A stretch of 58,827 nt of DNA from a virus. This document shows, in pieces, positions 8,461 through 58,382 of the stretch. The stretch lies in the IMG/VR virus record IMGVR_UViG_3300048088_000132, positions 1-58,827 of that record; one strand, written 5' to 3'. The position numbers and the translations under genes are program-made. Each line of letters starts with the position of its first letter. Within the stretch, counting starts at the first letter, position 1. The notes beneath the pieces are model-generated. The model had not been told where the DNA came from. It saw only the letters and a list, made by a program, of their open reading frames with translations, and ran no database searches.

Positions 8461-8475
8461 ACAACAGAGGCTACG

Positions 8476-8547
8476 TCAGCGCCGCAACAGCAGTACCACG
8501 ACCACGATGACGATGATCAGGATGATGAGACCGCTGCCGATGTACAT
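8476..8547 (-). CDS. 23-residue single-pass membrane peptide
   Basis: The peptide reads MYIGSGLI, then an unbroken Ile/Val/Leu run, then LLLRR and the stop. It is one transmembrane helix ending in positive charges. The ATG overlaps the stop of the upstream gene by one base (TGATG), the coupling used throughout this cassette, which supports real translation. Function is unknown. Such peptides are often lysis or membrane-stress accessories. Confidence 0.55.
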   Translation of the reverse strand: MYIGSGLIILIIVIVVVVLLLRR

Positions 8548-9311: not shown

Positions 9312-9313
9312 GG

Positions 9314-9622
9314 CTAGCCTCCGCTCCGTTGACGCAACATGCGCTGCTTGGCGGCACTGGCGTGACCGTGGGTCGCACCGTGGGAGCCTCGGGTGCCGTG
9401 TGAGCCCTGCGAGCCCGACGACGAGAGGTTCGACCCGGCCACCCTCCAACGAGGTCGTGGGTCGGCGCCCGGTGTTGACATACACACCGCCGTCTTCAAC
9501 GAGCCTCGCGTCAACGCGGGCTTCTCACCCGCACCGCAGATACCACCGCCCCGGACGACCTTGATGCGCTTGCCTCCAACCATCTGGGAGTCATCCTGCT
9601 CATCACGCTTGGCCGGGACCAT
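9314..9622 (-). CDS. Small basic Gly/Ser/His-rich protein
   Basis: 102 residues beginning MVPAKRDEQDDSQMVGGKR and ending in a Ser/Gly/His-rich stretch with a basic C-terminus (AAKQRMLRQRSGG). It resembles no known family. A 98-bp gap separates it from the HAD-like gene upstream, the longest break in this part of the cassette. The ribosome site is weak (GGAG 14 nt upstream), so the start is uncertain. Confidence 0.5.
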   Translation of the reverse strand: MVPAKRDEQDDSQMVGGKRIKVVRGGGICGAGEKPALTRGSLKTAVCMSTPGADPRPRWRVAGSNLSSSGSQGSHGTRGSHGATHGHASAAKQRMLRQRSGG

Positions 9623-9720
9623 GTCAGGTACTGTACTCCGTGCTCAGAGACGTGCTCACTCTTGCCCTCTTGGTGGTGCTGTTCGCCCTGGTAGGGCTGT
9701 GGGTCACCCATGTTGACTGG

Positions 9721-10227
9721 TCAGGCGTCATCAATGGACCAGCCCCCACCACTACGACTACCGACCTCGTCCACCTGGACGCCGTTCGTCCGGTCATGCT
9801 GAGCCTGCTGCAAGGCCACCAGACGCTCCCAGGCTCGTGGTGGACCGTTCGATGGCAGCCAAGCGGGCCGTAGCATGTGATGAGTCAACAGCAGGCTCGA
9901 CACCCCCATGCTGTACACCTGGCGCACCGCGTCAGGGTCCACGTCCAGGTACAGCCCGACCGGCCAACCGGTTCCAAGGGCTTCTCGGACCTGCGAGACC
10001 TTCCAAGAGACATCGGTCAGCACACTGTCGCCCTTGTCCAGCAGAATCTCGTAGCGCACCGTGTTCGAGCGCATGATGCGCTGAGCTTCTTCTCGGGGAC
10101 TGGTCGTGAGCACAACAGTGCGGAACTCCGTCGCCAGGCCCCGGTACATGGCCAGGTGCCGGTCGATCTTGTTGTCCTCGATCGACAGCACCCCCTCCAA
10201 GGCGATCATCAGCGACTCACCCGCCAT
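9721..10227 (-). CDS. Degenerate HAD-like phosphatase-fold protein
   Basis: 168 residues from ATG 10227, TGATG-coupled to the GNAT-like gene. The layout resembles small phage HAD-like hydrolases: a first strand MIALEGVLSIEDNKIDR, a middle VVLTTSPREEAQRI (motif II-like T/S), and LYLDVDPDAVRQV. The catalytic DxDx[TV] aspartates of motif I are missing (ALEG), so phosphatase activity is doubtful. It may instead bind nucleotide or protein. The family assignment is tentative. Confidence 0.45.
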   Translation of the reverse strand: MAGESLMIALEGVLSIEDNKIDRHLAMYRGLATEFRTVVLTTSPREEAQRIMRSNTVRYEILLDKGDSVLTDVSWKVSQVREALGTGWPVGLYLDVDPDAVRQVYSMGVSSLLLTHHMLRPAWLPSNGPPRAWERLVALQQAQHDRTNGVQVDEVGSRSGGGWSIDDA

Positions 10228-13069: not shown

Positions 13070-13372
13070 CTACCTCCCGGTGTACTTGTCGCGGCCCTCG
13101 CTCAGCCGCTGTCCGGCAACCCGGACGGCTGTACGTGCCCGCTTGAGGGTGCGGACGCTCCCACCACGTCCACCGTTCATGGCACCGCCTGCTACATCCC
13201 AGGCGAAGCGCGTGCCACGATCACTGAGCTTGGAGCCCGAGCCCACCGGAGGCCGGTACTCCCGCACCGCTCCAAGGTCACTCTGCTCCGTCAACATGCC
13301 CGAGTCCCGGTGCACTACACGACTGGTCTCCAAGGCACGGTCGGGGGGAGGAGGCGAGCCATGTCCGGCCAT
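13070..13372 (-). CDS. MAGHGS-family small protein, copy 1
   Basis: 100 residues starting MAGHGSPPPPDRALETSRVV. A Gly-rich middle precedes a basic C-terminus (RTLKRARTAVRVAGQRL). It is coupled to the Lys-rich 38-aa gene upstream by TGATG. No family is recognised beyond the shared N-terminus, which loosely recalls the MAGxGxxPK start of some phage small terminases. Confidence 0.6.
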   Translation of the reverse strand: MAGHGSPPPPDRALETSRVVHRDSGMLTEQSDLGAVREYRPPVGSGSKLSDRGTRFAWDVAGGAMNGGRGGSVRTLKRARTAVRVAGQRLSEGRDKYTGR

Positions 13373-18495: not shown

Positions 18496-19392
18496 TCAAG
18501 CACCCTGATAGAAGTTGTCATCGGTCCAGTCCACCTTGTCACCAGTGGGCTTGGGGCCGACGAGGGTGATGGTGTTCAACTCAGCCTGCTTGCGATGGAT
18601 GACGTCCGTCCCATCGATGCGAGGCGTGACGTTGTCAGGCTGGAAGCCGATCAGCTTGTTGAGTTCGGGTCCCAGGTAACGCATGAAGTGGATGATGCCT
18701 TTGTTGTCAGCGTCCCCGGCGAACCGGGCGTAGGCGTCGTCCACGATGATGAGGGTGTTCACGAGGTCGTTGCCTCCTGGTGTCGGCGTGGGGGTAGGTG
18801 CGGGAACATTCCCGGCCTGGATGATGCTGGGTAGCAACGGATAGAGGACGTTGCCCGGGCACGCCGTGGCACCCACGTCCCGGTGTCCGTACCACCCAGG
18901 CTGCCCACGAGAGATGGCCCGTGCTAGCACGTCATCGGTGAGCCGTCCGCTGCCGACCATCCACGCCAGCCACGCCTGGAAGACAGCTACAGCCTCAGGT
19001 GTCGGCTCGTGGTTGTAAGGAGGGTGGAAGAAGCCGATGAAGCAGATGCCAATAGACGAGCTATTGAACGCCCGTCCCGTCGAGGGATCAGGCGCCACTG
19101 CATGGCAACCCCTGGTGTCACCGAAGCCGCCATGGAGCACGCCAGTGGGGTAGACGAGATAGTTGTACTCGATGGCTGCACCGTCACGACCCTCTCCGTA
19201 GCTCTCGATCTGGCGGCTGAACGCCTCCTCCTGGCCCGCAGGAGGCTGGTTCGAGGCCGAGTGATGCACGACCAGCTTGGTGCACGGCGTGATCGTGGGA
19301 CGCCCGTTGGCAGGGTCGTACCGGGAGGCGAAGCGAGCGCCCCAGTCAACCGGAGGGACAACGAAGGCCGGGGCGTCGGGACACCACGTCAC
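18496..19392 (-). CDS. Endolysin, N-acetylmuramoyl-L-alanine amidase
   Basis: 298 residues from a GTG start (GTGA overlap). This is an Amidase_2/PGRP-type domain: VVHHSAS (His43/44, first zinc ligand) and WYGHRDVGATACPG (His170 and Cys178, the other two ligands), with a GICFIGFF strand between. It cleaves the amide between MurNAc and the stem peptide. After a Pro/Thr linker (PAPTPTPTPGG, about 200-210), the last 90 residues form a separate unknown domain, perhaps for wall binding. A holin candidate follows directly. Confidence 0.9.
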   Translation of the reverse strand: MTWCPDAPAFVVPPVDWGARFASRYDPANGRPTITPCTKLVVHHSASNQPPAGQEEAFSRQIESYGEGRDGAAIEYNYLVYPTGVLHGGFGDTRGCHAVAPDPSTGRAFNSSSIGICFIGFFHPPYNHEPTPEAVAVFQAWLAWMVGSGRLTDDVLARAISRGQPGWYGHRDVGATACPGNVLYPLLPSIIQAGNVPAPTPTPTPGGNDLVNTLIIVDDAYARFAGDADNKGIIHFMRYLGPELNKLIGFQPDNVTPRIDGTDVIHRKQAELNTITLVGPKPTGDKVDWTDDNFYQGA

Positions 19393-35578: not shown

Positions 35579-36031
35579 TCACAGCTTGACCCGCTGTGGC
35601 ACGAAGGCGTACGTCTCGCTCACCACGTACAGCGACTCCAGGTCGGCATCGCTGATCTTGCCGGTGAAGTTGAGGCCGAGGATCTTGTCCTCGTCCAGCG
35701 CCACGATGGTCTGCGTGCACTGGTTGTAGAGCTTGCGGGCCGTCAGGTACTCCTCGGCCGCTTCGATGTCGAGCGTGCGGGACACCCGGCGCTCTGCCTT
35801 GATGCCCTTGATGCGACCCTCGACCGGATCATCAGGCCAGTTGATCCAGTAGTGCCCAGCCTCGTCCCGAGTGCCGGACTCCTCCAGGATGGCGAGCAGT
35901 TCCTGACGCCGGTCTTCCTTGTCCTTGCCGAACTGCTTGACGGCGTCGTCAGCGTGCAGCCAGTGCTTCGCCGCGATGCGAGGGTCGAGCTTCACTCGCC
36001 GGGTGCTGCGCTTCAGCGTCTTCGTAGGCAT
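35579..36031 (-). CDS. First gene of the leftward recombination operon, unknown
   Basis: 150 residues from ATG 36031; the ATG at 36058 lies upstream of the -10 and is unlikely. The N-terminus MPTKTLKRSTRRVKLD carries the basic terminal motif. The body is charged and helical with a WINWPDDP core and a beta end. It has no recognised family. The promoter -10 is 6 nt from the ATG, so the message is probably leaderless. Confidence 0.6.
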   Translation of the reverse strand: MPTKTLKRSTRRVKLDPRIAAKHWLHADDAVKQFGKDKEDRRQELLAILEESGTRDEAGHYWINWPDDPVEGRIKGIKAERRVSRTLDIEAAEEYLTARKLYNQCTQTIVALDEDKILGLNFTGKISDADLESLYVVSETYAFVPQRVKL

Positions 36032-36037
36032 GGTCAC

Positions 36038-36065
36038 ATTATAACATGGCTTGACCATTCACCAA
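36038..36065 (-). promoter_or_regulatory. Sigma70-like leaderless promoter for the recombination operon
   Basis: On the minus strand TTGGTG (36065-36060), 16 nt, TATAAT (36043-36038), then 6 nt to the ATG at 36031. It is of the host sigma type, unlike the phage GGCCCAT promoters. Confidence 0.65.
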
Positions 36066-36105: not shown

Positions 36106-36117
36106 TAGTGTGACGGC
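36106..36117 (+). promoter_or_regulatory. -10 element of a leaderless promoter for the secreted protein gene
   Basis: TAGTGT (36106-36111) then 6 nt to the ATG, the same leaderless spacing as the divergent gene. No clear -35 is seen. A TGAGTCA core occurs at 36065-36071. Confidence 0.4.
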
Positions 36118-39117
36118 ATGATCAGGAGACTAGTCACAGTCGCCCTGCTCGCCATGGGGTTGGCGATGGTACCACTTGCCACCTCAGCGAGCGCGGCGCC
36201 ACCATCCGTACCCGTTGGGTTCAAGGCCATCCAGTACGACGCTGGCATGTTCGAGTACGACCTCACGAACTTCATCGAGATCCCCGGGACCAACACCCTC
36301 ATAGCCACCGGCAAGTCCGGCCGCATGACCCGTGTTGACATAACGGGTGACGGCATGGACCCCAGTGACGCCAACGTCACAGTGTTCCCTCAGGGCATGC
36401 CGACCTACTACCAGGGTGACCGTGGACTCCTGGGCATCACCCTGGCGAGCGACTACGCCACGTCCAAGCACGTGTTCCTGCTGTGGGACTACTGCCAACA
36501 GCAGCCTGGTCACCCGGTGGCGTCAGACGACCAGCAGTGCATCCCCGATGGAGGCCTACCCACTGGTCGGCTCTCCCGCATGACGCTGACCGGCACCGCC
36601 ACTGCTCCCACCGGGCTCGACTTCACCAGCGAAGTCGTGCTGATGGACAACCTGCCCTCGTGGTCACCCACACCTGGCGCGCCGTGCACCGACAGCCACA
36701 CCATCGGCTCCGTCATCTCAGACGGCGGGGGTGGTCTGTTCGTCGGCAACGGCGACGGCTCCGGCTACTGCGGTGTCGGGGATGCCGCGTCACTAGCCGC
36801 GCAGGACATCTTCTCGCCCCGAGGCAAGATCTTCCACATCAACGAAGACGGCACGCCCGTCGCCAACAACCCGTTCCTCACCGCCAAGATCGACGGTACC
36901 AACGACTACCCGATCCGGGATGAGTATTGGGCGCAGCGGGTGTACGCCTACGGCTTCCGCAACCCGTTCCGCTTCTCGACGGCCCAACTCGATAGCCACG
37001 TTCCTGAGTTGGTCGTGGGTGACGTGGGCTGGAACACCACCGAAGAGGTGGACACCGTCACCGCTTTCGACGGCACCACCACTGGCGAGAACTTCGGGTG
37101 GCCCTGCCTGGAAGGCACTGGACCTGGCCCCTTCGCTGGCAACGCCAAGTGCGGTACCAACCTCGTAGCACCTAGTACCACGTGGGATCACAACAACCAG
37201 CAGTCAGCCGTCGTCGGCGGCGTAGTCGCACCGCGAGGGTGGGGCAGCCAAGCATTCATCTTCGGGGACTACGCCCGTGGTGACCTGTTCATCGGTGATC
37301 ACTCCCATCCGTTTGGCGCGCTGGGCCAGTGGGGCTCGATCACCAGCATCCAGAAGTGCTTCCCCAACTCGGGCAGCATCGATGGTGACGTGTGCGTGTC
37401 CGACATCGGCAAGCCTGGTACCGGCCCCGGCAAGATCACCCGCATCCATGCCACCGGTACCACCAACGCCAACCCGACCGTCAGCATCTCGGGCGCTCCA
37501 CTCATCGGCCAAGCCCCAGTGAACGTGCAGTGGGCCACGCCCAACGCCATCGACCCGGACGGCAACATCGCCTCGTACTCGTGGAGCTTCGGGGACGGCA
37601 CGCCACCGCTGACTGGTACCGGGCAGCCCACCGGCCTGAGCCACGTGTACACAACGCCAGGCTCCTACGTCGCCGTGCTCACGGTCACCGACAACGGCAA
37701 CGCCACCGCCTCGGCTACACAGACGGTAACGGTTGGCAACAACCCACCGGTCCTGACGGTGACCGGCCCGCCGAACAACACCTTCTTCAAGATCGGTGAT
37801 CCGATCCACGTCATCGCATCAGCGACCGACAAGGACGGTGACGTGGTGGGCATCACGTACCAGCCGGTCATCCACCACTGCCCCACGCCTGGTGACTGCC
37901 ACGTGCACCCCCAGGCCATCCAGGACAGCCCGAACCTGACGTTCCCGAGCCATGGTGACGACAGCCCGGACTACTACCTGGAAGTGGTGGTGCGAGCCAC
38001 GGACGCTCGTGGTGCCGTGGTGCAGCAGTCGGTGAACTACCTCCTGTCGGCTGCCACGCCGCCTGAGGTGCCGCCTGTCGAGCCGCCGATCGTGCCGCCC
38101 ACTCAGACGCTCAGGTTCAATCCTCAGCCGCCTCAGCGGCTCGTGGACACCCGTACCGAATCCGCACCGATGCAAGCCGGTGCGGTCGAGTCGGTCAACC
38201 TCGGTGGCCACAAGGCAGCGATGCTGACGGTCACCGCCACCCAGCCAGTAGCACCGGGCTACCTCACGGTGTACCCATGTGGTACCAACCCTGGCACCTC
38301 CACGGTGAACTACGACACCGGGCAGAACGTCAGCAACGTGGCCATCGTGAGCATCCCCGCCGATGGGTGGGTGTGCTTCGTGAGCAACCAGCAGACGGAC
38401 ATGGTGGTGGACCTGTCGGGGTACTTCGACCCGACCGGCCTGGGCTACCAGCCCATCAACCCGGTGCGGGTGTTCGACTCCCGGCCCAACGCCTTCGCGG
38501 CAGGGCATCAGATCGTGTTCAACCAGGCCGGAGTGCCTGAGGGCACCGCCGCCATGATGATGAACCTCACGGTGACGGAACCTCAGGCCGCTGGCTACCT
38601 ACGGGCCTACCCCTGTGCCGCCGAGGACGGCACGTCCAACGTGAACTACGCAGCGGGCCAGACGATCGCCAACTTCGCGGCGGTGCAGTCACCGGGAGGC
38701 ACGTTCTGCTTCCGGAGCTACGCCAACACACAGGTGGTCGATGACCTGGCCGGGTACTTCCTCAACCAGGGCGGCAACAACCTCACGTCGGTCACCCCGA
38801 CACGGCTGTTCGACACCCGCTCATCCGAGGGCTTCACCCGCCTGGCCGCAGGTCAGGAGCTTGCGGTGAACCTGGGCCTACCCACCGGCTCGACGGCTGC
38901 GGTGCTCAACATCACCGTCGCTGACCCGAGCGCCGATGGCTACGTGCAGGTGTACCCCTGCGGGGTGAACCCCACCACCAGTTCAGTCAACTACGTAGCC
39001 CACCAGGTGAGCGCCGCCAACATGACGGTGGTCAAGATCCCGGCGAACGGTCAGGTGTGCTTCAAGAGCTTCGCCAACACCGATCTGATCGTTGACCTGT
39101 CAGGGTGGTTCAAGTAG
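36118..39117 (+). CDS. Secreted glucose/sorbosone dehydrogenase-like protein with PKD domain and three surface repeats
   Basis: 999 residues. A Sec signal peptide (RRLVTVALLAMGLAMV, cleavage near ASA) leads to a beta-propeller of the PQQ-dependent sugar dehydrogenase type (about 30-445): VYAYGFRNPFRFS, ELVVGDVGWNTTEEVDTV, GENFGWP. A PKD domain follows (about 455-540; SYSWSFGDGTPP). Three ~110-residue repeats (about 670-999) each contain [LF][VF]D[TS]R, a YPCG or YPCA, SxVNY, and VVDLSGYF-like ends, as found in secreted actinobacterial proteins. The gene stands alone, rightward between two leftward operons, with its own promoter and terminator. It is most likely a moron that alters the infected cell surface; quinone-dependent activity is not proven. 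Confidence 0.8.
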   Translation: MIRRLVTVALLAMGLAMVPLATSASAAPPSVPVGFKAIQYDAGMFEYDLTNFIEIPGTNTLIATGKSGRMTRVDITGDGMDPSDANVTVFPQGMPTYYQGDRGLLGITLASDYATSKHVFLLWDYCQQQPGHPVASDDQQCIPDGGLPTGRLSRMTLTGTATAPTGLDFTSEVVLMDNLPSWSPTPGAPCTDSHTIGSVISDGGGGLFVGNGDGSGYCGVGDAASLAAQDIFSPRGKIFHINEDGTPVANNPFLTAKIDGTNDYPIRDEYWAQRVYAYGFRNPFRFSTAQLDSHVPELVVGDVGWNTTEEVDTVTAFDGTTTGENFGWPCLEGTGPGPFAGNAKCGTNLVAPSTTWDHNNQQSAVVGGVVAPRGWGSQAFIFGDYARGDLFIGDHSHPFGALGQWGSITSIQKCFPNSGSIDGDVCVSDIGKPGTGPGKITRIHATGTTNANPTVSISGAPLIGQAPVNVQWATPNAIDPDGNIASYSWSFGDGTPPLTGTGQPTGLSHVYTTPGSYVAVLTVTDNGNATASATQTVTVGNNPPVLTVTGPPNNTFFKIGDPIHVIASATDKDGDVVGITYQPVIHHCPTPGDCHVHPQAIQDSPNLTFPSHGDDSPDYYLEVVVRATDARGAVVQQSVNYLLSAATPPEVPPVEPPIVPPTQTLRFNPQPPQRLVDTRTESAPMQAGAVESVNLGGHKAAMLTVTATQPVAPGYLTVYPCGTNPGTSTVNYDTGQNVSNVAIVSIPADGWVCFVSNQQTDMVVDLSGYFDPTGLGYQPINPVRVFDSRPNAFAAGHQIVFNQAGVPEGTAAMMMNLTVTEPQAAGYLRAYPCAAEDGTSNVNYAAGQTIANFAAVQSPGGTFCFRSYANTQVVDDLAGYFLNQGGNNLTSVTPTRLFDTRSSEGFTRLAAGQELAVNLGLPTGSTAAVLNITVADPSADGYVQVYPCGVNPTTSSVNYVAHQVSAANMTVVKIPANGQVCFKSFANTDLIVDLSGWFK

Positions 39118-39152: not shown

Positions 39153-39180
39153 GAAGAGCCCCCCGGAAGGGGGGCTCTTC
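39153..39180 (+). terminator. Strong bidirectional terminator hairpin
   Basis: 12-bp perfect arms (39153-39164 and 39169-39180) with a GGAA loop lie between the convergent secreted-protein gene and the acidic 95-aa gene. It isolates the moron. Confidence 0.8.
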
Positions 39181-39185
39181 ACATT

Positions 39186-39473
39186 TCAGGCGACGTCCTC
39201 GCCGCTTTCCAGCGCCTTCTTGTCGTCCTCGGTCGCGTAGGGCTGGCCCGTGATGGGGTCCAGTTCCCCCGCTGCCACACCCGCGGCCTGCTCGTTGAGA
39301 GCAGCGGTGGCTTCCTCCCCCGTAGGGGTCTCCTCGCCCTCGTGCTCCACGATCTTGGTCCCGTTCATGGGATCGTTCCACGGGTAGATGGGCACACCTG
39401 CGGGATACACGGCCCGGACACCGTCCGGCTCGTACTCCTCTTCGGTGGCGGGCTCAGTCTCGATGTCTGACAT
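39186..39473 (-). CDS. Small acidic protein
   Basis: 95 residues, strongly acidic (SDIETEPATEEEYEPDG start; DDKKALESGEDVA end) with a short PITGQPYATED motif. There is no recognised family. The AAGGAAGGACATCCC ribosome region is good. It is the last gene of the replication operon. It could be a DNA mimic or assembly chaperone, but nothing proves it. Confidence 0.55.
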   Translation of the reverse strand: MSDIETEPATEEEYEPDGVRAVYPAGVPIYPWNDPMNGTKIVEHEGEETPTGEEATAALNEQAAGVAAGELDPITGQPYATEDDKKALESGEDVA

Positions 39474-39513: not shown

Positions 39514-41091
39514 CTACGCCGCCTCCAGGAACGACCGTAGGCTCCCCAGTGTCAGTGTCAGTGCACCCTTGGCATCGATGTGCTGGCCGTCGATCCAGGC
39601 CTCGCTCACCATGCGCTTCTGAGTCAACATCTCTAGCTGCCGTTCCTCGATGGTGTTCTTGCCCAACATGGTGAGCACGTTGACCTGGCCCCACTGGCTG
39701 GACGTGCGGTCGATACGGGCCACACGCTGGGCAAACGCACCCGCCGACCACGGCAGATCATAGGAGATGAGGTAGTTCACCTGGGGCAGGTCGATGCCGT
39801 ACTGACCGGCGTCCGACGACAGCAGAACCCTCGTCTGGTGCTGGAACCGGTCCAGGCTCTCGGCGCGCTGACGGGCGCTCATGTCCCCGATCAGGAAGGT
39901 GCTGTGGATGCCGTGGTGAGCCAACGCCTTGGCAATCATCCGCAGCATGGGCTTGAAGTAGGCGAACAGCACCACCCGGTTGCTCCGGTCCTCCGTCAGG
40001 ATCTCCTCGATCAACTCGACCGCCGTGTCCAGCTTAGTTGAGTCAACTACTCCGTCCAACCACCCCTCGGCCTTGAGCCATGATGCGTACTTGGAACCTG
40101 TAGAAGTGTCGGTGTCATCGAAGTCGTCAGCACTCATCGCCAGGAGGCCCGGGTGATCACAGAGGAGACGCATGCAGGTCAGGCGGCTCATGATCTCGCC
40201 CTTACCCTTGCCGCCAGCCTCTTTCTCGGCGCGACCATACGCGGCCAGTACGTTCCACCCGCCCATGCCACCGGCAGCGATAATGGCGTCGATGACGTCC
40301 AGGATGTCGGTGCGGATGAAGTCGTAGAGGTCCATGACCTGCTTCGACAACTGAACCGGTACCTCCATGCTGTTGATCCGTGGGAGGTACGCCTCGACAT
40401 CCTTGCGGGAACGCCGGAACATGACCGGCTCCATTGCGCGCTGGAGTACATCCATGTTGCGGTACTTGGTTGGCCGTCCGAAGTGGTCGCGCACGATGAA
40501 GGTGCGATCGAACTTGGGGAACGAGGGAAGCACGGTGCGGTCAACGAACTCCATGATCGAGAACAGTTCCTCGGGACGGTTCTCGATCGGCTGGCCCGTC
40601 AGTGCGAAGCGGTAGGGACTGTGCTGCGACCACGCCTTGAGGACCCGGGACCGCTTGGCCCGGAATGACTTGATCATCGTGGCCTCGTCAGCGATGACGA
40701 ACTGGGGCACCGGTATCCAGTGCCGGATCATCTCCAGGTCGTTGCGGAGGACGTCGTAGTTAGCCACGTTGTACCGGAATCGAAAGCTGTTCTGGTACTG
40801 AAAGCGCCGCTGAGCACGGTCCCCGTCGATGACCTGCACGTTGGGTCCCACGTGCTTTCGTATCTCACCCATCCACTGGAACTTGATGGAGTTGGGGCAG
40901 AGGACGAACCCGGACGTGACCTCTCCCTGCGCTGCCAGTAGTTCAACTGCGGCCAGGGCCGTAACGGTCTTGCCTGCGCCCATCGTGAGGGCAAGGAGTT
41001 GGTTGCCCCTCTCGACCATGCGTGCGAGGGCTTCCGTCTGATAAGGGCGCGGCTCAAGGTTCAGAGACCATAGAGTCGAGTCCGCTTCCAT
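39514..41091 (-). CDS. SNF2-type superfamily 2 helicase
   Basis: 525 residues from ATG 41091; the longer ORF reads into the primase. Motif Q-like PRPYQTEALARM, Walker A TMGAGKT, DEAT (motif II), SRVLKAW then LTGQPIENRPEELF (motif III region), ADDFDDTD insert, and motif VI QRVARIDRTSSQ are seen. The layout is SNF2/Rad54-like, common in actinophages for replication fork remodelling or branch migration. The 3' end holds a 13-bp repeat encoding LTLTLG. It overlaps the primase by 31 bp. Confidence 0.85.
   Translation of the reverse strand: MEADSTLWSLNLEPRPYQTEALARMVERGNQLLALTMGAGKTVTALAAVELLAAQGEVTSGFVLCPNSIKFQWMGEIRKHVGPNVQVIDGDRAQRRFQYQNSFRFRYNVANYDVLRNDLEMIRHWIPVPQFVIADEATMIKSFRAKRSRVLKAWSQHSPYRFALTGQPIENRPEELFSIMEFVDRTVLPSFPKFDRTFIVRDHFGRPTKYRNMDVLQRAMEPVMFRRSRKDVEAYLPRINSMEVPVQLSKQVMDLYDFIRTDILDVIDAIIAAGGMGGWNVLAAYGRAEKEAGGKGKGEIMSRLTCMRLLCDHPGLLAMSADDFDDTDTSTGSKYASWLKAEGWLDGVVDSTKLDTAVELIEEILTEDRSNRVVLFAYFKPMLRMIAKALAHHGIHSTFLIGDMSARQRAESLDRFQHQTRVLLSSDAGQYGIDLPQVNYLISYDLPWSAGAFAQRVARIDRTSSQWGQVNVLTMLGKNTIEERQLEMLTQKRMVSEAWIDGQHIDAKGALTLTLGSLRSFLEAA
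39551..39563 (+). repeat. 13-bp repeat GTCAGTGTCAGTG
   Basis: This perfect copy, extended upstream to CAGT-GTCAGT-GTCAGT-G, lies in the helicase C-terminal codons (GALTLTLG). Confidence 0.85.
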
Positions 41092-41987
41092 GCGTCGATG
41101 ATCTCCTGGTCTGTCGAGTAGTCGCCGGGGTCCTTGACACGTCCCTCGTAGCGCCATGGTACTGCGCCGACGCGCTTCCGTAGTTGGAATAGAACCCTGT
41201 CAGTGGCCTTGGCCCCGGCTGGGTCGATCGCCGGGTTGTCGAGCGCCACGATGACCTCGGTGCAGTTGCGAGCCAGGATCTCGATCTGCTTGTTGGACAC
41301 CTCGGCACCGAAGCTGGCTACTGCCTCGATGCCGCACTGCCTGAGCCGTACCGCATCCAGTGGTGACTCAACTAACACCAGGCGGTCCCCCTCCACCAGG
41401 TGCATCCCGAACAGGGTCTCGGACTTCACCATGCCCTTGGGGTAGTTGAACACCGCTCCCTTCTGGCGCTGCTGCCAGCCGAGCAGCTTGCCCCGAGGCG
41501 TACGGATGGGGAGTATCCAGCACCGGTTGACCTTGTCGTAGCGCACGCCGAAGAGCGCCGCCATGTCGGCCGAGAGCTTGCGGAAGGCCAGCAGTGCCGC
41601 TGGCATGGGTGGGAACTGGTTGTACTGCCACTCCAAGATGCGCCGGTCATCAATGGCGTCGCGCTTGGCCTTGCCCAGGGCGCTGACCCCCGAGGCCAGT
41701 GACACGGCCTTGGCCTCCGTCACGATGTCCTGATCGACCGGCCCACCCGTGAGGTAGCTGGCGAGGACTTCGAGCGAGGGCACCCGCCAGTCACAGGAGT
41801 AGCAGTGGCCGACCAGCTTGGCCTGGTTGAAGTAGAAGGACGGCTTGCGGTCCTCAGAGCCCGTCCGTTCGGCGTGCGCTGGGCACCACGCCTGGATCTC
41901 GGCCCCGGCTACGCGGTTGATGCGGAGTCCGATGCCCTCCAGGTAGGGGGTCAGATCAATAAGGGGAGTAGGTGTCGATGTCGTCAT
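41061..41987 (-). CDS. DnaG-type primase
   Basis: 308 residues from ATG 41987, inside the end of the DnaB gene. The zinc finger is Cys35, His38, Cys62 and Cys65 (CPAH ... CYSC). The Toprim core has LVLVESPLDAVRL (Glu207), VASFGAEVSNKQIEIL, then VIVALDNPAIDPAG (Asp250, Asp255). The DxD is spaced wider than in cellular DnaG. It makes primers with the adjacent DnaB-like helicase. The three replication genes overlap each other, implying stoichiometric synthesis. Confidence 0.8.
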   Translation of the reverse strand: MTTSTPTPLIDLTPYLEGIGLRINRVAGAEIQAWCPAHAERTGSEDRKPSFYFNQAKLVGHCYSCDWRVPSLEVLASYLTGGPVDQDIVTEAKAVSLASGVSALGKAKRDAIDDRRILEWQYNQFPPMPAALLAFRKLSADMAALFGVRYDKVNRCWILPIRTPRGKLLGWQQRQKGAVFNYPKGMVKSETLFGMHLVEGDRLVLVESPLDAVRLRQCGIEAVASFGAEVSNKQIEILARNCTEVIVALDNPAIDPAGAKATDRVLFQLRKRVGAVPWRYEGRVKDPGDYSTDQEIIDAWKRTRLYGL

Positions 41988-50654: not shown

Positions 50655-51100
50655 AGTGGTGCTCCCTCGAACGTCGCAAGGGCGCTGAGTCCCACTGACA
50701 CTGACGCGCCCACCGACGTGATCTGAGCGACCTGAGCGGAGGCTATGTGTCTCCCCTGGAGCGCCGTGGCTGCATGCCACCAGATGGCCGGGAAGACGTA
50801 CAGGTCCCCGGTGAACTGTTGCTGGAAGGCATAGCGTTGCCAGGCGGTACTATCGGTGAGCAGACCCCCGGCGCCCGGGTTGTACGTCTGCCGGTAGGCA
50901 CCCTTGTTGTCGTAGGTGACGAAGGAGCCCACCACCGTGGCGTTGGGAGCGCCCAGCAGGTGGCAGCACTGGAACTGGAACTCCCAGACCTCGCCGTTAT
51001 GCACAGGGATGCCGAAGTGCTGCCAGTCGGTCTCCTTGGCCCCGTCGAAGCCGCCGTCAGCGGTGAGGCCACAGACCACGGTCATGTCTACATAGGGCAT
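50651..51100 (-). CDS. Small tail-associated protein
   Basis: 149 residues from ATG 51100 (TGATG overlap). Beta-rich with many Gly and aromatics (WEFQFQCCHLLGAPNATVVG). Its SVSV codons hold a 13-bp repeat. It is probably a baseplate or fibre accessory, from position. Confidence 0.55.
   Translation of the reverse strand: MPYVDMTVVCGLTADGGFDGAKETDWQHFGIPVHNGEVWEFQFQCCHLLGAPNATVVGSFVTYDNKGAYRQTYNPGAGGLLTDSTAWQRYAFQQQFTGDLYVFPAIWWHAATALQGRHIASAQVAQITSVGASVSVGLSALATFEGAPL
50693..50705 (-). repeat. 13-bp repeat GTCAGTGTCAGTG (minus orientation)
   Basis: This perfect copy lies in the C-terminal codons (GASVSVG) of the 149-aa tail gene. Confidence 0.85.
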
Positions 51101-54100
51101 CAGACCACCTCCCAGCGAGCCAGCACGAGTCCCGGTGAGTAGGTGAGGTTAGAGAGGCGCTGCGTGACCGAAACGATGTAGTTCCGCTGGAGCGCCACGT
51201 AGACGATGTCGTTCACGGCGATGTCAGTGTCAGTGGTGATCCGACACAGTTCACCGTTGTCGTTGTTGAGGTAACCACTGGCAATCGTCAACCGGTTCTT
51301 CATCACCCAGAAGGGCTGCATCCCGGTGTAGTCGGCTGTGCTCGGGGTCAGTATGGCCGAGATGCTGAAGTGACCGGCCACCGTGGACTTCCACACCCCC
51401 GAGGTGGCAGGGATAGCGACAGACTGCGCGATCCGCCAGAACGGGTAGGTGGCGTACGAGTATGTCGGGGTCGTGGTCGTGTAGAAGTCCTGGCTAGACG
51501 GGCACCAGATGCGGATCTCACACACCTGACCCGCCAACACACTGGCGTTGGTGAGATGCGCGAGGATGGGATGGATGCCATCCGCCGTCGAGCGACTGTG
51601 CTCCACGCCGCCGATGAACAACGCGATGATCGTGCCCGCCAGCACCGGAGTATTCGCCGCGATACCACCGATGAACATCACGTTGAACTCAGCCAGCGTT
51701 ACGTTGCTGGCGGGTTGCCAACCGATACCATCTCCGGCCACGTTGGTCCACGCCACGCCCGAAGGTGCGAAGACATCCGCTGGCCAGGAGGTACGGTTCC
51801 ATCCAGCAGGCAACGTAATCGTGCCGCCTGGTGAGCTACTGGCGGCTGCCACGTGCGAACCCAGCATCTTGTTGGTAGCCGTCGCCCCTGCCGCGATCGC
51901 ACCCGCATCGACCCACGCCGTGCCGGTACCACCGGTCGGCGCTGACCGCTGCGTATTGATATTGACGACGTCCCTGGTGGTCAGGTACGTACCGGTACCA
52001 CCTGGTGGACCGAAGAACTGCCCGACCCACGACACTCGGGTGCTGTCGTAGAGATACAGCATCTCGTAGCTCTGCGCCGGGTTCCACGGCCGGTCCGGTA
52101 TGTTCGACTGCGCCCGACCGGTGATCATGGGCACCGTGGAGCGCAACGTCGTGAGGTCAGGCGGTGCGATGGCCGGAGAGCCATCAGCCACCTGCCACTT
52201 AGGGTTGTAACCCGAGATGGGTCCCAGGGCACCCATCGTGGCCGGGATGGTCAACGTCGCTATACCAGCGACCCAGAACAGCCCCGGGTGTCCACCCACT
52301 GTCTGGTACTCTAGATGCCAGGTGGTACCGTCCTGTAGCTGTACGTAGTCACCGGACTTCCACGCCACCGGAGGATGCACGTTGCTGATGCTGGGGCCAC
52401 CAGTGTTGAGCGCCGCGATGTTGGCAGGGGGCAACGCACCCATGGGGAACATCCAGGCCGGAGCCCCGGCGTTGACATAGCCCAGCGTGGGACGCGTCAC
52501 TGTGCCTGGCCCTGCTACCCACGCGGTGCCGTTCCAGTGCGTCGTCTCGGCGTTCGGCAAGGTGTACATGTCACCAGCCCACCAGCCCGCCGTGTTGACC
52601 GGGTAGTAGTTGGGCACGACCCCAGCCACCACCGGAGGTACCGCCGCGAGGAGCCCAGCGAAGGTCTGCGGGTAGAAGCTGACAGGCCCGGTGATGTTGC
52701 TCACCGCCCCGTAGAGCCCCGGGAAGATGGTCACCAGGATCTCGATGATCTCCATGACACCACGGCCCATCTCGGGCGGCAGTTGCGGCAGTGTGAGAGT
52801 GGTGGCAAAGCCCGTGGAGTTGTACGTGCCCGCGTACTTGCGAAGCTGGAGGTAGGTGTACAGGTCATTGGGCGGGTGCGTGGGGCCGATGGGGTTCGTC
52901 ATGTCCAGCACGTGAGGATTCGTGTACGGCAGCCAGTGGCCCACGCCGTTGACGAACTCAGCGTCATCAGGCGAGAGCACTGCGTTGTAGCCCTGGATCA
53001 CGATGGCCTGGTAGTTACTGGCGGCGTAGATCATCTCCTGGAGCCCCAGGAGCGTCCCTCGCATGCCCTCAAGCTCCCACAACCGCCCTACCAGCGAGCG
53101 GTACCGGGCTCCCCCCAGGGCAGACTCCGGGGGGAGCCCGAGGTTGGCCCCCACTTGTTGAGTGAACTGTAGCGGAGCCAGGTCGTTGTCGTAGATGTTC
53201 AGGATGCCGTCGAGCAGTGTCCGGTTGTAGTCGGCGTCGTAGCCCAGCACGGCCAGGAAGCGCCGCAGTTGCCCGTTCTGCCCGTCCCCTGCGGCCTGAT
53301 TGTCCACCCCCTGATAGAAAGGCGGGATCATGCCGAACAGCTTGTCGGCATGACCGTACATCTTTGGTACCAGCACCTTCTCAGTAGCAGCAGCCATCCA
53401 GAGCGCAGGCTGTGGGTACGGCTGGCTGGTGACGTTGACGAAGAGCGTGTAATAGTACCAACGGCCCTCGGTGAGGGGCTTGTCCCACGCCTGTTGATTG
53501 AACTGAGCGGTCACCGGGAGCGCCAGGTTGTCCGGATTGTAGAACACGGGCTCGCCGTCGAGGGGCGTGGTGGGGTAGCCGAAGCCACCCCGCACCAGTA
53601 CCATCTCGCCCCGGTTGGGCACCGAGGCAGGCACCTGGATACGCATTAGCACAGCGTCGTACCCGTACGGCGTGCCGGTGAGCGTGGTGCCCTTGACGAC
53701 GTCGAAGACGTAGTCCTGCGGGCCGTAGCGCAGCGGTGACTGGATGCCCGCCGTGATCGAGTCGGGCCATGGCGTGGCCCAGTACGTCCGCATGTCGTTG
53801 TAGACCTGATAATGCGCGCTCAGGTCGTTACTCACGAAGCCGAAGGACTGCTCCCGCGTACCACCCGAGGGCCGGTCGATCACGGTGAACCACAGGATCG
53901 GCCCCATGCGTGACCGGATGCTGGCCATGCAACCACCCGGCATGATGGTGGCGAAGACGTTGTGCGCCCGGTTGGACTGCTCAGCCTGGCTGATGGGTAC
54001 CGACCGTGGCGCACCGGTCTCGGTGGTCCAGAGCTTGAGGTTCCGGCCCGGTGCGTAGTTGTCCAGGATGGTGAGCACGGCCTGTGCCGACACCAGGTTC

Positions 54101-56400
54101 ATACCGGGCCAGCCACCCAGGTCGGTACAGGGCAGGTCCGTATCAAGGTACGGATGCCAGGCCACCGCGTCACAGTTGGCGTAGACGCCAAGCTGACCCC
54201 AGCGCTCGAAGGTGCTGAGCGCTCCCTTGCCGGGAGGGTTCGGTGTGCCCAGCGTCTGGAACACCGTGTCTGCTGTTGACAAACCACCAGTGATGACCGT
54301 CATGCCCGGTACGGCAGCCTTGATGGCCGGATACACCGCCGCCATCATGTTGGCGAAGGCCACCCGGTAGTTGGCGTCAGTCACCGAAGCCACGTTCCAG
54401 AACGTCGCCAGGTTCGGCTCGTTCCAGATCTCTACCTGGTGCACGCCGAGGCTCCAGAGGTGCACACAGGCCGTAGCACACCAGTTGGCGAAGGTCGTGT
54501 TGCTAGTTGGTGGCGTCTTGTCGTTGGTCGAGCCGTTCATCCACTGCGGCAGGATGTACAGCACCGGCAGGGGCGTGATCCCCTTGCTCAGGTCAGCCAA
54601 GATCCACTTGTCAGCCACCGAGTAGTTGAACGTGCCCGCCGTGGGGCTGATCTGTGACACCGGGTAGTCACTGCGGTGCCAACCCACGCCGAGGTCTTGC
54701 ATGAGGCTCGACTGTTGACTGATCAACAGGTCACTGGCGTAGGCACCCTGCTCCTGGGGCGTGGAGAACCCGGAGTTCACCTTGCCCTGGGAGAGGCTGA
54801 ACCCCGCCGAACGAAGGACATCGCCCCCGGTGTTGCGCCGCAGTGTGAACGGCTGCCACCCACTGGTGGGAGCAGCAGGCGCAGCAGGAGGAGCCACCTG
54901 GCCAGCAAGCGTCCCCGAGCCAGCGCCAAGCCCTGCTGACGAGCCCGCCAGTGCCACCATTGTGCTGAGCGCGCCAGTGACCGTGCCGACGCCGTCTGAC
55001 TGACCTGAGAGGGCCACTGGACCCGCAGGGGACACGTTGATGCTGTCCACGAACATGTCCGGGCCGACCGAACCACCGCACGAGACGTTAAGCGCCCAGA
55101 GGTCCGTGGAGAAGGCGTACGTCGTGGAGGCGAAGGCGTTCCAGGTGCGCCCGTTCGGGCTCGTCTCCCAGAACAGCGTGGTACCAGAGTGCCGGATGCG
55201 GAGCCACGCGTGAGCCACCGGATCGTAGGGCACGCTGTTGAGATCAGCACCAGGTGACGTGGTGGCGATCAGGTTGAGGCCGTAGACGATGAAGCTGATG
55301 ACCTGAGCACGGCTAGGGGTCTGGAGATCGAAGTGGGACTCCCGTCCCACTGCGGGTGTGGACGGCGTCCACTTGCAGTAGATGCTGCTGTTCTGGATGG
55401 TGTAGAAGGGGTTGGCGAAGTCCGTGCCCAGTGTGTAGAAGCTGCCCGTGCACTGGATGCCCACCCGCTGGTTGGCGCTGTCGTAGTAGGTACCGGGAGC
55501 GCCGCTGGTTGATACCCACTTGACCCGGTCCAGCGTGGTATCGAAGCTGTCGATGAGTTGACTGAACGGCAGGTACCGAGAGTTGAGGACCCGCACCGAC
55601 TGGCGGTAGTTGAGCAACGGGGCTGTCGGCTGGGTCGGCGCTTGGCTGAGCACCCGTACCAACTGCCGAAAGTTCTCGACCGGTGACGTAGTCCCTAGAA
55701 GACCCACCCGAATCGAGTGTCGAGCATCACGCACGATGTCGGTGGCCGGACCCGCACCTTGGAGGCCCACCCGAGCCGACTGCCGAGCATCAGCCGCCGC
55801 CGAGAGCGGAGTTAGCGTCTGCGAGCCACGGAAGCTCTCACCGCCGCCCATGGCCACATACATGTCGTCGTAGAGCGTCGTGGTGCTGGTCGAGCCGTTG
55901 ATTTGTACCGTGTCGAACACGGTCTTGGTACCCGCCTGCTTCGTGTCCTGAGCGGTGAGTGCCAGACGTTGGGTGCCGTTGAGGTTGATGGTGACGACAC
56001 CCACGGTGTCACTGAGCACTGCCTGGACTTCGACGTAGTACCAGGTGTTGATGGCGATGAGGCCAGTGGCCGTCGTGCCGATGACCGTGCCTGCGGAGTT
56101 GCCACGGCGCACCTGGATGGAGCCGTCAGTGAGCACAGTGAACGTGAGGTGCGCCGTGGCCCCGGTGTCCGAGTAGAGGCCGAGCAACTGACGAGGCGCC
56201 GACAGACTCGACACCTGCCAGGCGAAGCCGAGCGTGATGGTGGCCGACTCCAGCGTGGACGGGACCCGATACTGGTTGAAGCCTTGGAGGTTGAGATTCT
56301 GGGCGCAGTTTCCTGTGCGCCCCGCCACGATCGACCAGGGTGCCGAGTTGACACTCCAGTTGAAGAAGCTCTCGAACGGCTCCAGCAGCGCTGTTGTCAC
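51100..56400 (-). CDS. Baseplate protein with lectin-like, glycoside hydrolase and tail-protein-I domains
   Basis: 1766 residues from a GTG start. In order: an LamG/ConA-like domain (1-190) related to the next two genes; four ~20-residue [QH]S.RVG repeats (about 203-275); a second beta-sandwich (285-460); a Gly/Ser/Ala linker; a GH-A clan hydrolase (about 520-880) with IWNEPN (acid/base Glu661) and TTETG (nucleophile Glu794); a phage tail-protein-I (TIGR02242-like) domain (about 1030-1170; LRRFLAVLGY, RGTLLGLQEM); and a long fibre-like C-terminus. It probably degrades host surface glycan while anchoring to the baseplate. Confidence 0.75.
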   Translation of the reverse strand: MTTALLEPFESFFNWSVNSAPWSIVAGRTGNCAQNLNLQGFNQYRVPSTLESATITLGFAWQVSSLSAPRQLLGLYSDTGATAHLTFTVLTDGSIQVRRGNSAGTVIGTTATGLIAINTWYYVEVQAVLSDTVGVVTINLNGTQRLALTAQDTKQAGTKTVFDTVQINGSTSTTTLYDDMYVAMGGGESFRGSQTLTPLSAAADARQSARVGLQGAGPATDIVRDARHSIRVGLLGTTSPVENFRQLVRVLSQAPTQPTAPLLNYRQSVRVLNSRYLPFSQLIDSFDTTLDRVKWVSTSGAPGTYYDSANQRVGIQCTGSFYTLGTDFANPFYTIQNSSIYCKWTPSTPAVGRESHFDLQTPSRAQVISFIVYGLNLIATTSPGADLNSVPYDPVAHAWLRIRHSGTTLFWETSPNGRTWNAFASTTYAFSTDLWALNVSCGGSVGPDMFVDSINVSPAGPVALSGQSDGVGTVTGALSTMVALAGSSAGLGAGSGTLAGQVAPPAAPAAPTSGWQPFTLRRNTGGDVLRSAGFSLSQGKVNSGFSTPQEQGAYASDLLISQQSSLMQDLGVGWHRSDYPVSQISPTAGTFNYSVADKWILADLSKGITPLPVLYILPQWMNGSTNDKTPPTSNTTFANWCATACVHLWSLGVHQVEIWNEPNLATFWNVASVTDANYRVAFANMMAAVYPAIKAAVPGMTVITGGLSTADTVFQTLGTPNPPGKGALSTFERWGQLGVYANCDAVAWHPYLDTDLPCTDLGGWPGMNLVSAQAVLTILDNYAPGRNLKLWTTETGAPRSVPISQAEQSNRAHNVFATIMPGGCMASIRSRMGPILWFTVIDRPSGGTREQSFGFVSNDLSAHYQVYNDMRTYWATPWPDSITAGIQSPLRYGPQDYVFDVVKGTTLTGTPYGYDAVLMRIQVPASVPNRGEMVLVRGGFGYPTTPLDGEPVFYNPDNLALPVTAQFNQQAWDKPLTEGRWYYYTLFVNVTSQPYPQPALWMAAATEKVLVPKMYGHADKLFGMIPPFYQGVDNQAAGDGQNGQLRRFLAVLGYDADYNRTLLDGILNIYDNDLAPLQFTQQVGANLGLPPESALGGARYRSLVGRLWELEGMRGTLLGLQEMIYAASNYQAIVIQGYNAVLSPDDAEFVNGVGHWLPYTNPHVLDMTNPIGPTHPPNDLYTYLQLRKYAGTYNSTGFATTLTLPQLPPEMGRGVMEIIEILVTIFPGLYGAVSNITGPVSFYPQTFAGLLAAVPPVVAGVVPNYYPVNTAGWWAGDMYTLPNAETTHWNGTAWVAGPGTVTRPTLGYVNAGAPAWMFPMGALPPANIAALNTGGPSISNVHPPVAWKSGDYVQLQDGTTWHLEYQTVGGHPGLFWVAGIATLTIPATMGALGPISGYNPKWQVADGSPAIAPPDLTTLRSTVPMITGRAQSNIPDRPWNPAQSYEMLYLYDSTRVSWVGQFFGPPGGTGTYLTTRDVVNINTQRSAPTGGTGTAWVDAGAIAAGATATNKMLGSHVAAASSSPGGTITLPAGWNRTSWPADVFAPSGVAWTNVAGDGIGWQPASNVTLAEFNVMFIGGIAANTPVLAGTIIALFIGGVEHSRSTADGIHPILAHLTNASVLAGQVCEIRIWCPSSQDFYTTTTPTYSYATYPFWRIAQSVAIPATSGVWKSTVAGHFSISAILTPSTADYTGMQPFWVMKNRLTIASGYLNNDNGELCRITTDTDIAVNDIVYVALQRNYIVSVTQRLSNLTYSPGLVLARWEVV
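51223..51235 (+). repeat. 13-bp repeat GTCAGTGTCAGTG
   Basis: This perfect copy lies in the C-terminal codons (TDTDIAVND) of the 1766-aa protein. Confidence 0.85.
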
Positions 56401-57398
56401 ACCACTTCAACCCCTGATTGAAGCGCGTTGACGTTGGCGATCGTCCAGGCCGCTGACGTCTCCGGGTCGGTGGGCAGCATGTACTGGAACGCAACGTAAG
56501 TCGTAGCGAGCGTCAGTGCGGCAGTCTTGTTGTCAGCCGCACGTCGGTTCACGATCCTGACCTGACGAAGGTTCACCGCGTCAGTCTTGGCCAGGTACGC
56601 CGAATGGCACACACCTACTATCGTCCCTGTTGAGTGAACAAGATCCGTGAGTGTGTACATGTCCTGATGACCTGACACCGAATCAGCCACGTAGTCAGTG
56701 GTGTCAGGAACACCCACCTCGTCAACCAGCAGATAGTTGTTCACGGAATCAGCATCCGAACCAACCCACTGATTGGCGTTGCCGTTGCCGTTCGGGTACA
56801 GCGTCTCGATCACGATGTCACCAAGGAACGTGTCCCCAGTGCCGGACATGAGGTAGAGGTCATTGAAGTACGGAGTGGTGGCTGAGCCAACCCTGAGCGA
56901 TATGGAATCGAACGTGGTCTTGGTCCCATTGTTCTTGGTATCCAGGTTCGATAGCGGACCAATGACCGTCACACCGTTCACCCGCACGATCGCGGTGCCT
57001 ACGGTGTCGGACAACTTGGCCTGAAGCTCGACGTAGTACCAGACGCCAATGTTGAGGAGACCGGCCACGCTGGAACCGAGGATAGCGAAGCCAGCGCTGC
57101 TGCTACGGCCCACGTCGATGGAGCCGGTTGACGTGAGCCGCAACGAGACGTGGGCCGTGGCCGTGGCGTCGGAAGTCAAGGCGAAGAAGTCACTCGTTGA
57201 CGCTGGCAGCGAACCGAACTTAACAGCAAACCCAACGGTGAAGGTGTCCGCTTCCTGAGCGGCGGGGACCGTGTAGTAGCTGTTGTTGATGGTCCCGGCG
57301 AACTGGAAGCAGTTGCCGTTGCGCCCAGCGCCGATGGTGGGGATGTAGGCGGTCCAACACGTCAGGTCTTCACAGCCGTCGAGCAGAATCAATGCCAT
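56397..57398 (-). CDS. LamG/ConA-like tail protein, copy 2
   Basis: 333 residues. Lectin-type beta sandwich; WYYVELQAKLSDTVG and ETLYPNGNGNANQWVGSDAD match the upstream paralogue (copy 1) almost residue for residue, and the first half matches the N-terminus of the 1766-aa protein. It probably binds host glycans. TAG and ATG are directly adjacent at the upstream boundary. Confidence 0.7.
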   Translation of the reverse strand: MALILLDGCEDLTCWTAYIPTIGAGRNGNCFQFAGTINNSYYTVPAAQEADTFTVGFAVKFGSLPASTSDFFALTSDATATAHVSLRLTSTGSIDVGRSSSAGFAILGSSVAGLLNIGVWYYVELQAKLSDTVGTAIVRVNGVTVIGPLSNLDTKNNGTKTTFDSISLRVGSATTPYFNDLYLMSGTGDTFLGDIVIETLYPNGNGNANQWVGSDADSVNNYLLVDEVGVPDTTDYVADSVSGHQDMYTLTDLVHSTGTIVGVCHSAYLAKTDAVNLRQVRIVNRRAADNKTAALTLATTYVAFQYMLPTDPETSAAWTIANVNALQSGVEVV

Positions 57399-58382
57399 CT
57401 AGCTCACCTCCACACCACTCTGGAGCGAGTCCAGGTTCGAGTACGTCCATGCCGCGCCGGTCTCAGGATCTGTTGTCAAGCACCAGTGGTATGCCGCCAA
57501 CGTGGGCTGCAACGTCTGCGTGACCTTGGTATCCGAGTTGCGACGGTTCACTTGCTTGAACGATGTCAGGTTCGTGGAGGTACCAACGACCGACTGATGA
57601 CACACCCCCAGAACCAAGCCCGTCCGGAGCGTGGGGTTGCCCGTGGCGTACATGTCCTGCTGCCCGCTGGTGGAGCCACCTGTGTAGTCACTGATGCTAG
57701 GAGGATTCTCGGACACGAGCAGGTAGTTGTTTGTTGAGTCACCATCACTGCCCACCCAGGCGTTGGCGTTGCCGTTGCCGTTCGGGTACAGCGTCTCCAC
57801 TAGGCAGTCACCGAGGAACGAGTCCCCCGTGCCGGTCATCAGGTAGAGATCATCGAAGCTGATAGTCAGGCCGCTACCGTTGCCCAGCTTGATCGTGTCA
57901 GTCGTCGTCTTGGTACCAGCGGCCTTGGTATCAAGGCCCGTCAGTGGTCCGAGCACCGTCACGCCGTTGACCCGTATCGTGCCCGTGCCGAGGGTGTCGT
58001 GCATCCTCGTTTGCAACTCGACGTAGTACCACGTGTTCACGGCAGCGATCACGCCCACCCCAGTGGTACCGAGCGTGTTCCCGCCCCGAGTGAACGTCAA
58101 CGACCCGTTGGCGTTCAACCGGACCGACTGATGAAACGTCACCCCAGCGTCTGAGTAGAGGCTGACAACGTCAACGGTCCCGCTAAACGCCGAAATCTTA
58201 AATGCCACGCCCAACGTGACAGTGTCAGACTCCTGGGCCGAGGGGATAGTGAAGCTCATGCTGGCCGAGATACTAGGAGTGCTCACTCCGTTAGCGGTTC
58301 GACCAGCACCGATCGTCCACCCCCCCAAGCCGACGACCCAGGCGAACAGATCCTCGAAGCCGTCTACCAGGATGAGTGACAT
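57399..58382 (-). CDS. LamG/ConA-like tail protein, copy 1
   Basis: 327 residues, a tandem paralogue of the next gene (WYYVELQTRMHDTLG; ETLYPNGNGNANAWVGSDGD). Differences cluster in surface loops, consistent with receptor-driven diversification. It is TGATG-coupled to the baseplate-J-like gene. Confidence 0.7.
   Translation of the reverse strand: MSLILVDGFEDLFAWVVGLGGWTIGAGRTANGVSTPSISASMSFTIPSAQESDTVTLGVAFKISAFSGTVDVVSLYSDAGVTFHQSVRLNANGSLTFTRGGNTLGTTGVGVIAAVNTWYYVELQTRMHDTLGTGTIRVNGVTVLGPLTGLDTKAAGTKTTTDTIKLGNGSGLTISFDDLYLMTGTGDSFLGDCLVETLYPNGNGNANAWVGSDGDSTNNYLLVSENPPSISDYTGGSTSGQQDMYATGNPTLRTGLVLGVCHQSVVGTSTNLTSFKQVNRRNSDTKVTQTLQPTLAAYHWCLTTDPETGAAWTYSNLDSLQSGVEVS

Follow-up and report, generated by a model that had tools for sequence, protein, structure and literature searches.

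The open reading frame at positions 36,118–39,117 of a 58,827-nucleotide viral contig from IMG/VR (hereafter the window) is, as judged from its sequence and genomic setting, a genuine phage-resident cargo gene (moron), with a 999-residue product that combines a glucose/sorbosone dehydrogenase (GSDH) propeller, a PKD domain, an Ig-like domain and three C-terminal surface repeats. The carrier is probably a lytic myovirus of ~118 kb, and our preferred reading, tentative and held at somewhat less than even confidence, is that the protein is exported and tethered to the surface of the infected cell, where the GSDH moiety would alter or mask the envelope. The gene suggests that a virus remodels or guards the exterior of the cell whilst multiplying inside it.

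The reading frame opens with ATG, and since an in-frame stop codon lies 12 bp upstream, no longer start is possible. It is not a chance ORF, because a full-length orthologue, 67% identical over 1011 residues, occupies the same site in a second phage (G004/L093) and dN/dS is ~0.37; the gene is thus not a one-off. A preliminary description of this DNA had proposed a PQQ-type (sugar-dehydrogenase) propeller, a PKD domain and three repeats within 999 residues encoded in the opposite orientation to the neighbouring genes. Pfam matches and repeat comparison bear out the whole of this architecture, and the strands of the ORFs the orientation, but the Ig-like domain had been missed. The propeller scores 60.6 bits against PF07995 (gathering threshold 25; 77.6 bits for the L093 copy), and a Pro-rich linker separates the Ig-like domain from the repeats (Table 1). 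The protein is acidic (pI 4.5) with an all-beta multidomain build, its whole-length AlphaFold model has a mean pLDDT of 75.9, and no PHROGs family matches it.

Table 1. Features of the cargo gene and its surroundings (positions in the window)
Feature	Positions	Strand	Evidence
Cargo gene; exported GSDH-PKD-Ig-3xRVxDTR protein, 999 aa	36118..39117	+	PF07995/PKD matches; 67% orthologue; dN/dS 0.37
Predicted Sec signal peptide, aa 1-27, AxA cleavage near aa 26	36118..36198	+	n/h/c regions read from sequence
Six-bladed GSDH beta-propeller, aa 32-446	36211..37455	+	PF07995 2e-16; AlphaFold model; VIA-align
H194, equivalent of sGDH catalytic base His144	36697..36699	+	invariant in 53/53 alignment rows
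R281-N282, equivalent of sGDH Arg228-Asn229	36958..36963	+	R in 53/53, N in 48/53 rows; alignment to 1c9u
PKD domain, aa 450-539	37465..37734	+	PKD_4 PF18911 3e-16; PF00801 6e-13
Ig-like domain, aa 540-643	37735..38046	+	Big_7 E 0.006, sub-threshold; segment aligned with cellular GSDH-PKD homologues
RVxDTR surface repeat 1, Cys721/Cys753	38110..38436	+	repeat model pLDDT 92.7
RVxDTR surface repeat 2, Cys833/Cys864	38437..38781	+	repeat comparison, Cys pairing
RVxDTR surface repeat 3, Cys948/Cys981	38782..39114	+	best-conserved domain of the phage pair, 79%
Candidate leaderless -10 TAGTGT, 6 nt before ATG	36106..36111	+	TAnnnT-N5-8-start arrangement
-10 TATAAT, 6 nt before likely start 36031 of divergent gene 35579-36058	36038..36043	-	sequence
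GC-rich hairpin between convergent genes, bidirectional terminator-like	39153..39180	.	12-bp perfect stem
Conserved hypothetical gene, adjoins helicase in cargo-less relatives	35579..36058	-	synteny; pSt2308 homologue E 6e-4
Small ORF between helicase and hairpin	39186..39473	-	similarly placed 114-aa ORF in L093, homology by eye only
DNA helicase flanking insertion	39514..41157	-	PHROG 62, 6e-87; synteny

Single-sequence patterns retrieved no close relatives of the whole protein from IMG/VR; an alignment query recovered three near-identical contigs (L092–L094), in which the orthologue is likewise reversed and lies between the helicase and the conserved hypothetical gene. Among 80 helicase loci examined, some of them short, these three contigs are the only ones with a GSDH gene. 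In at least ten relatives (L015, L018, L019, L020, L021, L022, L027, L032, L042 and L064 included) the two flanking genes stand 0–230 bp apart, and in Streptomyces phage pSt2308 the helicase is followed, with no cargo gene between, by a weak homologue of the conserved hypothetical gene, so the site is empty in all of these genomes. The assignment as a moron made in the preliminary description is therefore upheld by an extra, reversed gene in a conserved operon, with a hairpin, an empty site in relatives and domains of cellular origin. In L023, L024, L025, L027, L029 and L030, other extra genes of 1–4 kb occupy this gap or one next to it by the helicase, suggesting a cargo hot spot. L021, from another phage of the clade, encodes a 421-residue protein with a CARDB domain (8474–9739) in the interval from primase to helicase; it may be a surface cargo of another kind.

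The dN/dS of the cargo gene (NG86, one pairwise comparison) is like that of the helicase, with most neighbouring replication genes at 0.35–0.44, and its GC3 matches that of its neighbours. By these sequence measures the gene is under purifying selection and has been kept long-term; most likely its acquisition preceded the split between the two phages, and constraint has acted on it ever since. Recent transfer was considered and is ruled out by the GC3 and by a divergence between orthologues about equal to that of the replication genes. It is very improbable that the gene is a mere passenger, captured from a host and of no benefit to the phage: relatives do manage without it, but the full length has been kept across ~33% protein divergence with catalytic residues and cysteines intact, and the purifying selection argues against such a reading.

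The gene had also been credited with its own promoter and a bidirectional terminator. A promoter scan found no sigma-70-type site upstream of the start codon, and what stands of the first claim is the leaderless-type TAGTGT candidate, with which a promoter of its own is plausible. TAnnnT hexamers lie 5–8 nt before the start at 6 of the 41 genes of the window (background 0.0015 per position), and their arrangement suggests that they are leaderless promoters. The second claim fares better: the G+C-rich hairpin sits between the converging stop codons, has a predicted stability of roughly -27 to -28 kcal/mol whichever strand is folded, and has an unrelated strong hairpin as its positional counterpart in L093 (about 13095–13137). 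Its T-tract is weak, and a generic terminator scanner did not call it.

The N-terminal signal sequence (MIRRLVTVALLAMGLAMVPLATSASA) is laid out as MIRR, LVTVALLAMGLAMVPLA and SASA, and this start of the protein is conserved in the L093 orthologue. No other ORF in the non-overlapping set of the window passes a simple signal-peptide plus AxA filter, which is consistent with the predicted Sec secretion. There are 16 cysteines, with seven pairs at corresponding places in the orthologue; taken together, the Sec signal and the paired cysteines predict an exported protein with extracytoplasmic disulfides. A search of the protein for a cell-wall anchor motif and for a C-terminal membrane helix found neither, so the predicted retention at the surface would depend solely on the repeats. 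The C-terminus of the orthologue (L093:9911–13069) carries an Excalibur-like DxDxDG-x2-CE motif (18.1 bits; Pfam cut-off 22) that is absent from the window copy.

The predicted propeller superposes on the PQQ sugar dehydrogenase structure 3a9g with a VIA-align Z of 39.9 (rmsd 2.3 over 323 residues) and on 3das with a Z of 37.8, within a range of 31–40 for solved PQQ sugar dehydrogenases. In sGDH, His144 is the catalytic base, and Arg228 and Asn229 sit together next to the ketones of PQQ (PMC6881810); the phage protein has equivalents of all three. By the same mapping, which is a profile alignment and not a comparison of coordinates, G304 keeps Gly247 of the sGDH Ca2+ loop. Several of the other PQQ/Ca2+ contact residues of sGDH, namely Q231, Q246, P248, K377, R406 and R408, are not kept: Q231 is replaced by F284, Q246 by V303 and P248, next to Gly247, by W305, and equivalents of K377, R406 and R408 were not identified in the phage protein by sequence alignment. 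The preliminary description, which called the propeller a PQQ-type dehydrogenase and proposed to look for the catalytic His and the PQQ site in a predicted structure, thus holds for the fold but only in part for PQQ-type activity, the His/Arg/Asn equivalents being kept and other contacts replaced. The same fold is found in HHIP (Z 28–32), which to our knowledge is not an enzyme, so loss of activity is possible in such propellers. A catalytic role is plausible from the conserved residues; the replaced contacts make activity uncertain, and the propeller may be a non-enzymatic binder, although PQQ may be bound in another way elsewhere in the class.

These features bear on the possibility of a secreted auxiliary metabolic enzyme, i.e. 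an active PQQ/Ca2+-dependent aldose dehydrogenase whose extracytoplasmic sugar oxidation feeds electrons to the respiratory chain. Such a role is consistent with a fold and a catalytic triad shared with PQQ sugar dehydrogenases, amongst them the PQQ-bound Streptomyces Adh (3das). It is also consistent with a list of auxiliary CAZymes encoded by viruses of mangrove soil, in which AA12 genes appear (PMC6460857); this was the only relevant find in our literature searches on viral sorbosone dehydrogenase or AA12. With several PQQ contacts replaced, and with three surface repeats for which a soluble oxidase would have no need, we regard this reading as unlikely.

The repeats, of ~110 residues each and of the type RVxDTR...SxVNY...VxDxxGYF, are 43–50% identical to the first and contain one Cys pair apiece. 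A single repeat is predicted with high confidence as a beta-sandwich; among solved structures the model best matches the Bdellovibrio Bd2133 fibre, at its C-terminal domain (Z 10.2, rmsd 2.4 over 100 residues), followed by carbohydrate-binding domains (Z ~8), and from this modelled fold it may reasonably be supposed that the repeats adhere to envelope glycans. The repeats occur in no other ORF of the window and were not found in other viral contigs, but are present in 15 of 296 sampled Actinomycetota genomes, mostly in many copies each; two of these genomes (G036 and G118) encode proteins of 838 and 794 residues composed of a signal, a GSDH domain and three RVxDTR repeats. Together with the GSDH tree described below, this survey supports the earlier view that repeats and propeller are of secreted actinobacterial character.

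The likeness of the repeats to an adhesin fibre domain and to carbohydrate-binding modules, the partial loss of PQQ contacts, the fold shared with HHIP, and the acidic, all-beta build would each suit a non-catalytic adhesin, in which the propeller has, as in HHIP, been turned into a binding module, so that the protein bridges cells, attaches to glycans or serves as a receptor decoy. A pure binder would have no need of a catalytic His invariant in every aligned row or of a nearly invariant Arg-Asn pair, and we judge this reading unlikely.

The preliminary description had further held that such a protein is characteristic of secreted proteins and not of virions. The fold is no safe basis for that conclusion: the rule that a propeller excludes a virion role fails in general, because marine myophages carry GSDH propellers in baseplate-type proteins. 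For the present protein, other features argue against a virion role. A tail or fibre component binding the host surface, to which the baseplate-wedge-type virion proteins of marine myophages would be a precedent, is improbable given the Sec signal, the even number of paired cysteines, the lack of any virion domain, the reversed placement of the gene within the replication module, and a GSDH lineage that differs from that of the marine proteins.

The window is colinear with about half of the 118-kb G004, which encodes a terminase, a portal and a tail sheath and is thus a myovirus. By DNA polymerase and helicase the closest sequenced phages are the Streptomyces phages pSt2308, GiJojo, Alone3, LuckySocke and BRock (31–36%). 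The repeats and the GSDH tree point to actinobacteria, which are probably the hosts. Neither the window nor G004, two records that may be incomplete, has a match to tyrosine or serine integrases (PF00589, PF00239); the phage is therefore probably lytic, although other modes of integration exist, and lysogenic conversion, also considered, is unlikely. No tRNAs were found in the window. The endolysin (Amidase_2; window 18496–19392) is 90% identical over 178 residues to that of G004, most other shared genes being 45–70% identical. The window also has a queuine tRNA-ribosyltransferase-like gene (7102–8460; PHROG 887, 5e-27), another possible auxiliary gene, and three neighbouring ORFs (51100–56400, 56397–57398 and 57399–58382) matching PHROG 2448, whose function is not assigned in PHROGs; G004 has a second PHROG-62 helicase-like gene (L195:9541–11100).

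In our preferred reading, the host Sec system would export the protein during infection, and disulfides would form outside the membrane and stabilise it. The three adhesin/CBM-like beta-sandwich repeats would then hold it on the envelope with the GSDH propeller displayed outside, where the propeller may bind or oxidise envelope or extracellular sugars and so change the exterior of the infected cell. The likeliest gain to the phage would be that phage receptors are masked or altered, leading to superinfection exclusion or to less re-adsorption, because this best fits a surface-held protein of a phage that is probably lytic; extra oxidation of sugars in the course of infection and adhesion alone come close behind as rivals. 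Blocked superinfection and changed carbohydrate metabolism, both raised in the preliminary description, are conjectural. A more specific version, in which a sugar oxidase of host type, bound at the cell surface, edits the envelope glycans and excludes other phages by destroying their receptors through oxidation, appears quite unlikely, and a limited literature search did not find this mode of superinfection exclusion described for phages. Where phage morons have the host surface as their target, their products are typically small membrane proteins or glycosyl-modifying enzymes. For a phage that is probably lytic, a Sec-exported protein of 100 kDa, with several domains and host-style surface repeats and kept by selection, would be an unusual investment, and through it phage control of the actinobacterial envelope would become directly testable.

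The best cellular relatives, taken from 80 loci of GTDB genomes, are 28–35% identical to the phage protein. In a quick GSDH tree the two phage proteins group with those of an Actinomycetes MAG (L112), Amycolatopsis acididurans and Granulicoccus phenolivorans (SH-aLRT 99) on a long stem (1.04). On this evidence the propeller is derived from actinobacterial secreted GSDH-PKD proteins and was captured long ago. These sister proteins have the same GSDH-PKD(-Ig) module, but are only ~30–35% identical to the phage protein, and RVxDTR repeats were not detected in them. The G036 and G118 proteins share the signal, the GSDH domain and the three C-terminal repeats, yet have neither PKD nor Ig domain, their repeats have no Cys pair, and their GSDH falls in a different clade from the phage pair, so the fusion of GSDH with three repeats has more than one origin or has undergone reshuffling. 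The only match in a phage collection, MT837751.1 (L009, ‘Bacteriophage sp.’), was set aside as it looks like a piece of bacterial DNA (deaminase, ROK regulator, sugar ABC transporter, GSDH).

With the PQQ aldose and glucose dehydrogenases (3a9g, 2g8s, 3das and A. calcoaceticus sGDH; PF07995; CAZy AA12 in fungi) the protein has in common the six-bladed propeller and the His144/Arg228/Asn229 equivalents, but it is phage-encoded, has other PQQ contacts replaced, and adds the PKD, Ig and repeat domains. The related Streptomyces phages of 112–116 kb (pSt2308, BRock and relatives) have a similar replication module, with DNA polymerase 31–32% and helicase 33–36% identical, but are without the GSDH gene, the next operon gene following directly after the helicase. 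A 484-residue stand-alone GSDH without signal peptide is encoded at L095. Amongst viruses, AA12/GSDH genes are already known, including the GSDH fold in Pithovirus LCPAC and Marseillevirus LCMAC, which are giant viruses of eukaryotes. In the marine myophages identified in the present analysis (L096–L111), the phage-encoded propeller belongs to a separate clade and is embedded in baseplate-wedge-type proteins of 2,400–2,860 residues without signal peptide. What is new among the viral GSDHs found is a phage protein with a predicted signal peptide and host-type surface repeats, an unusual product for a moron; GSDH propellers were captured separately in two phage contexts, as predicted exported cargo here and as virion baseplate proteins in the marine myophages.
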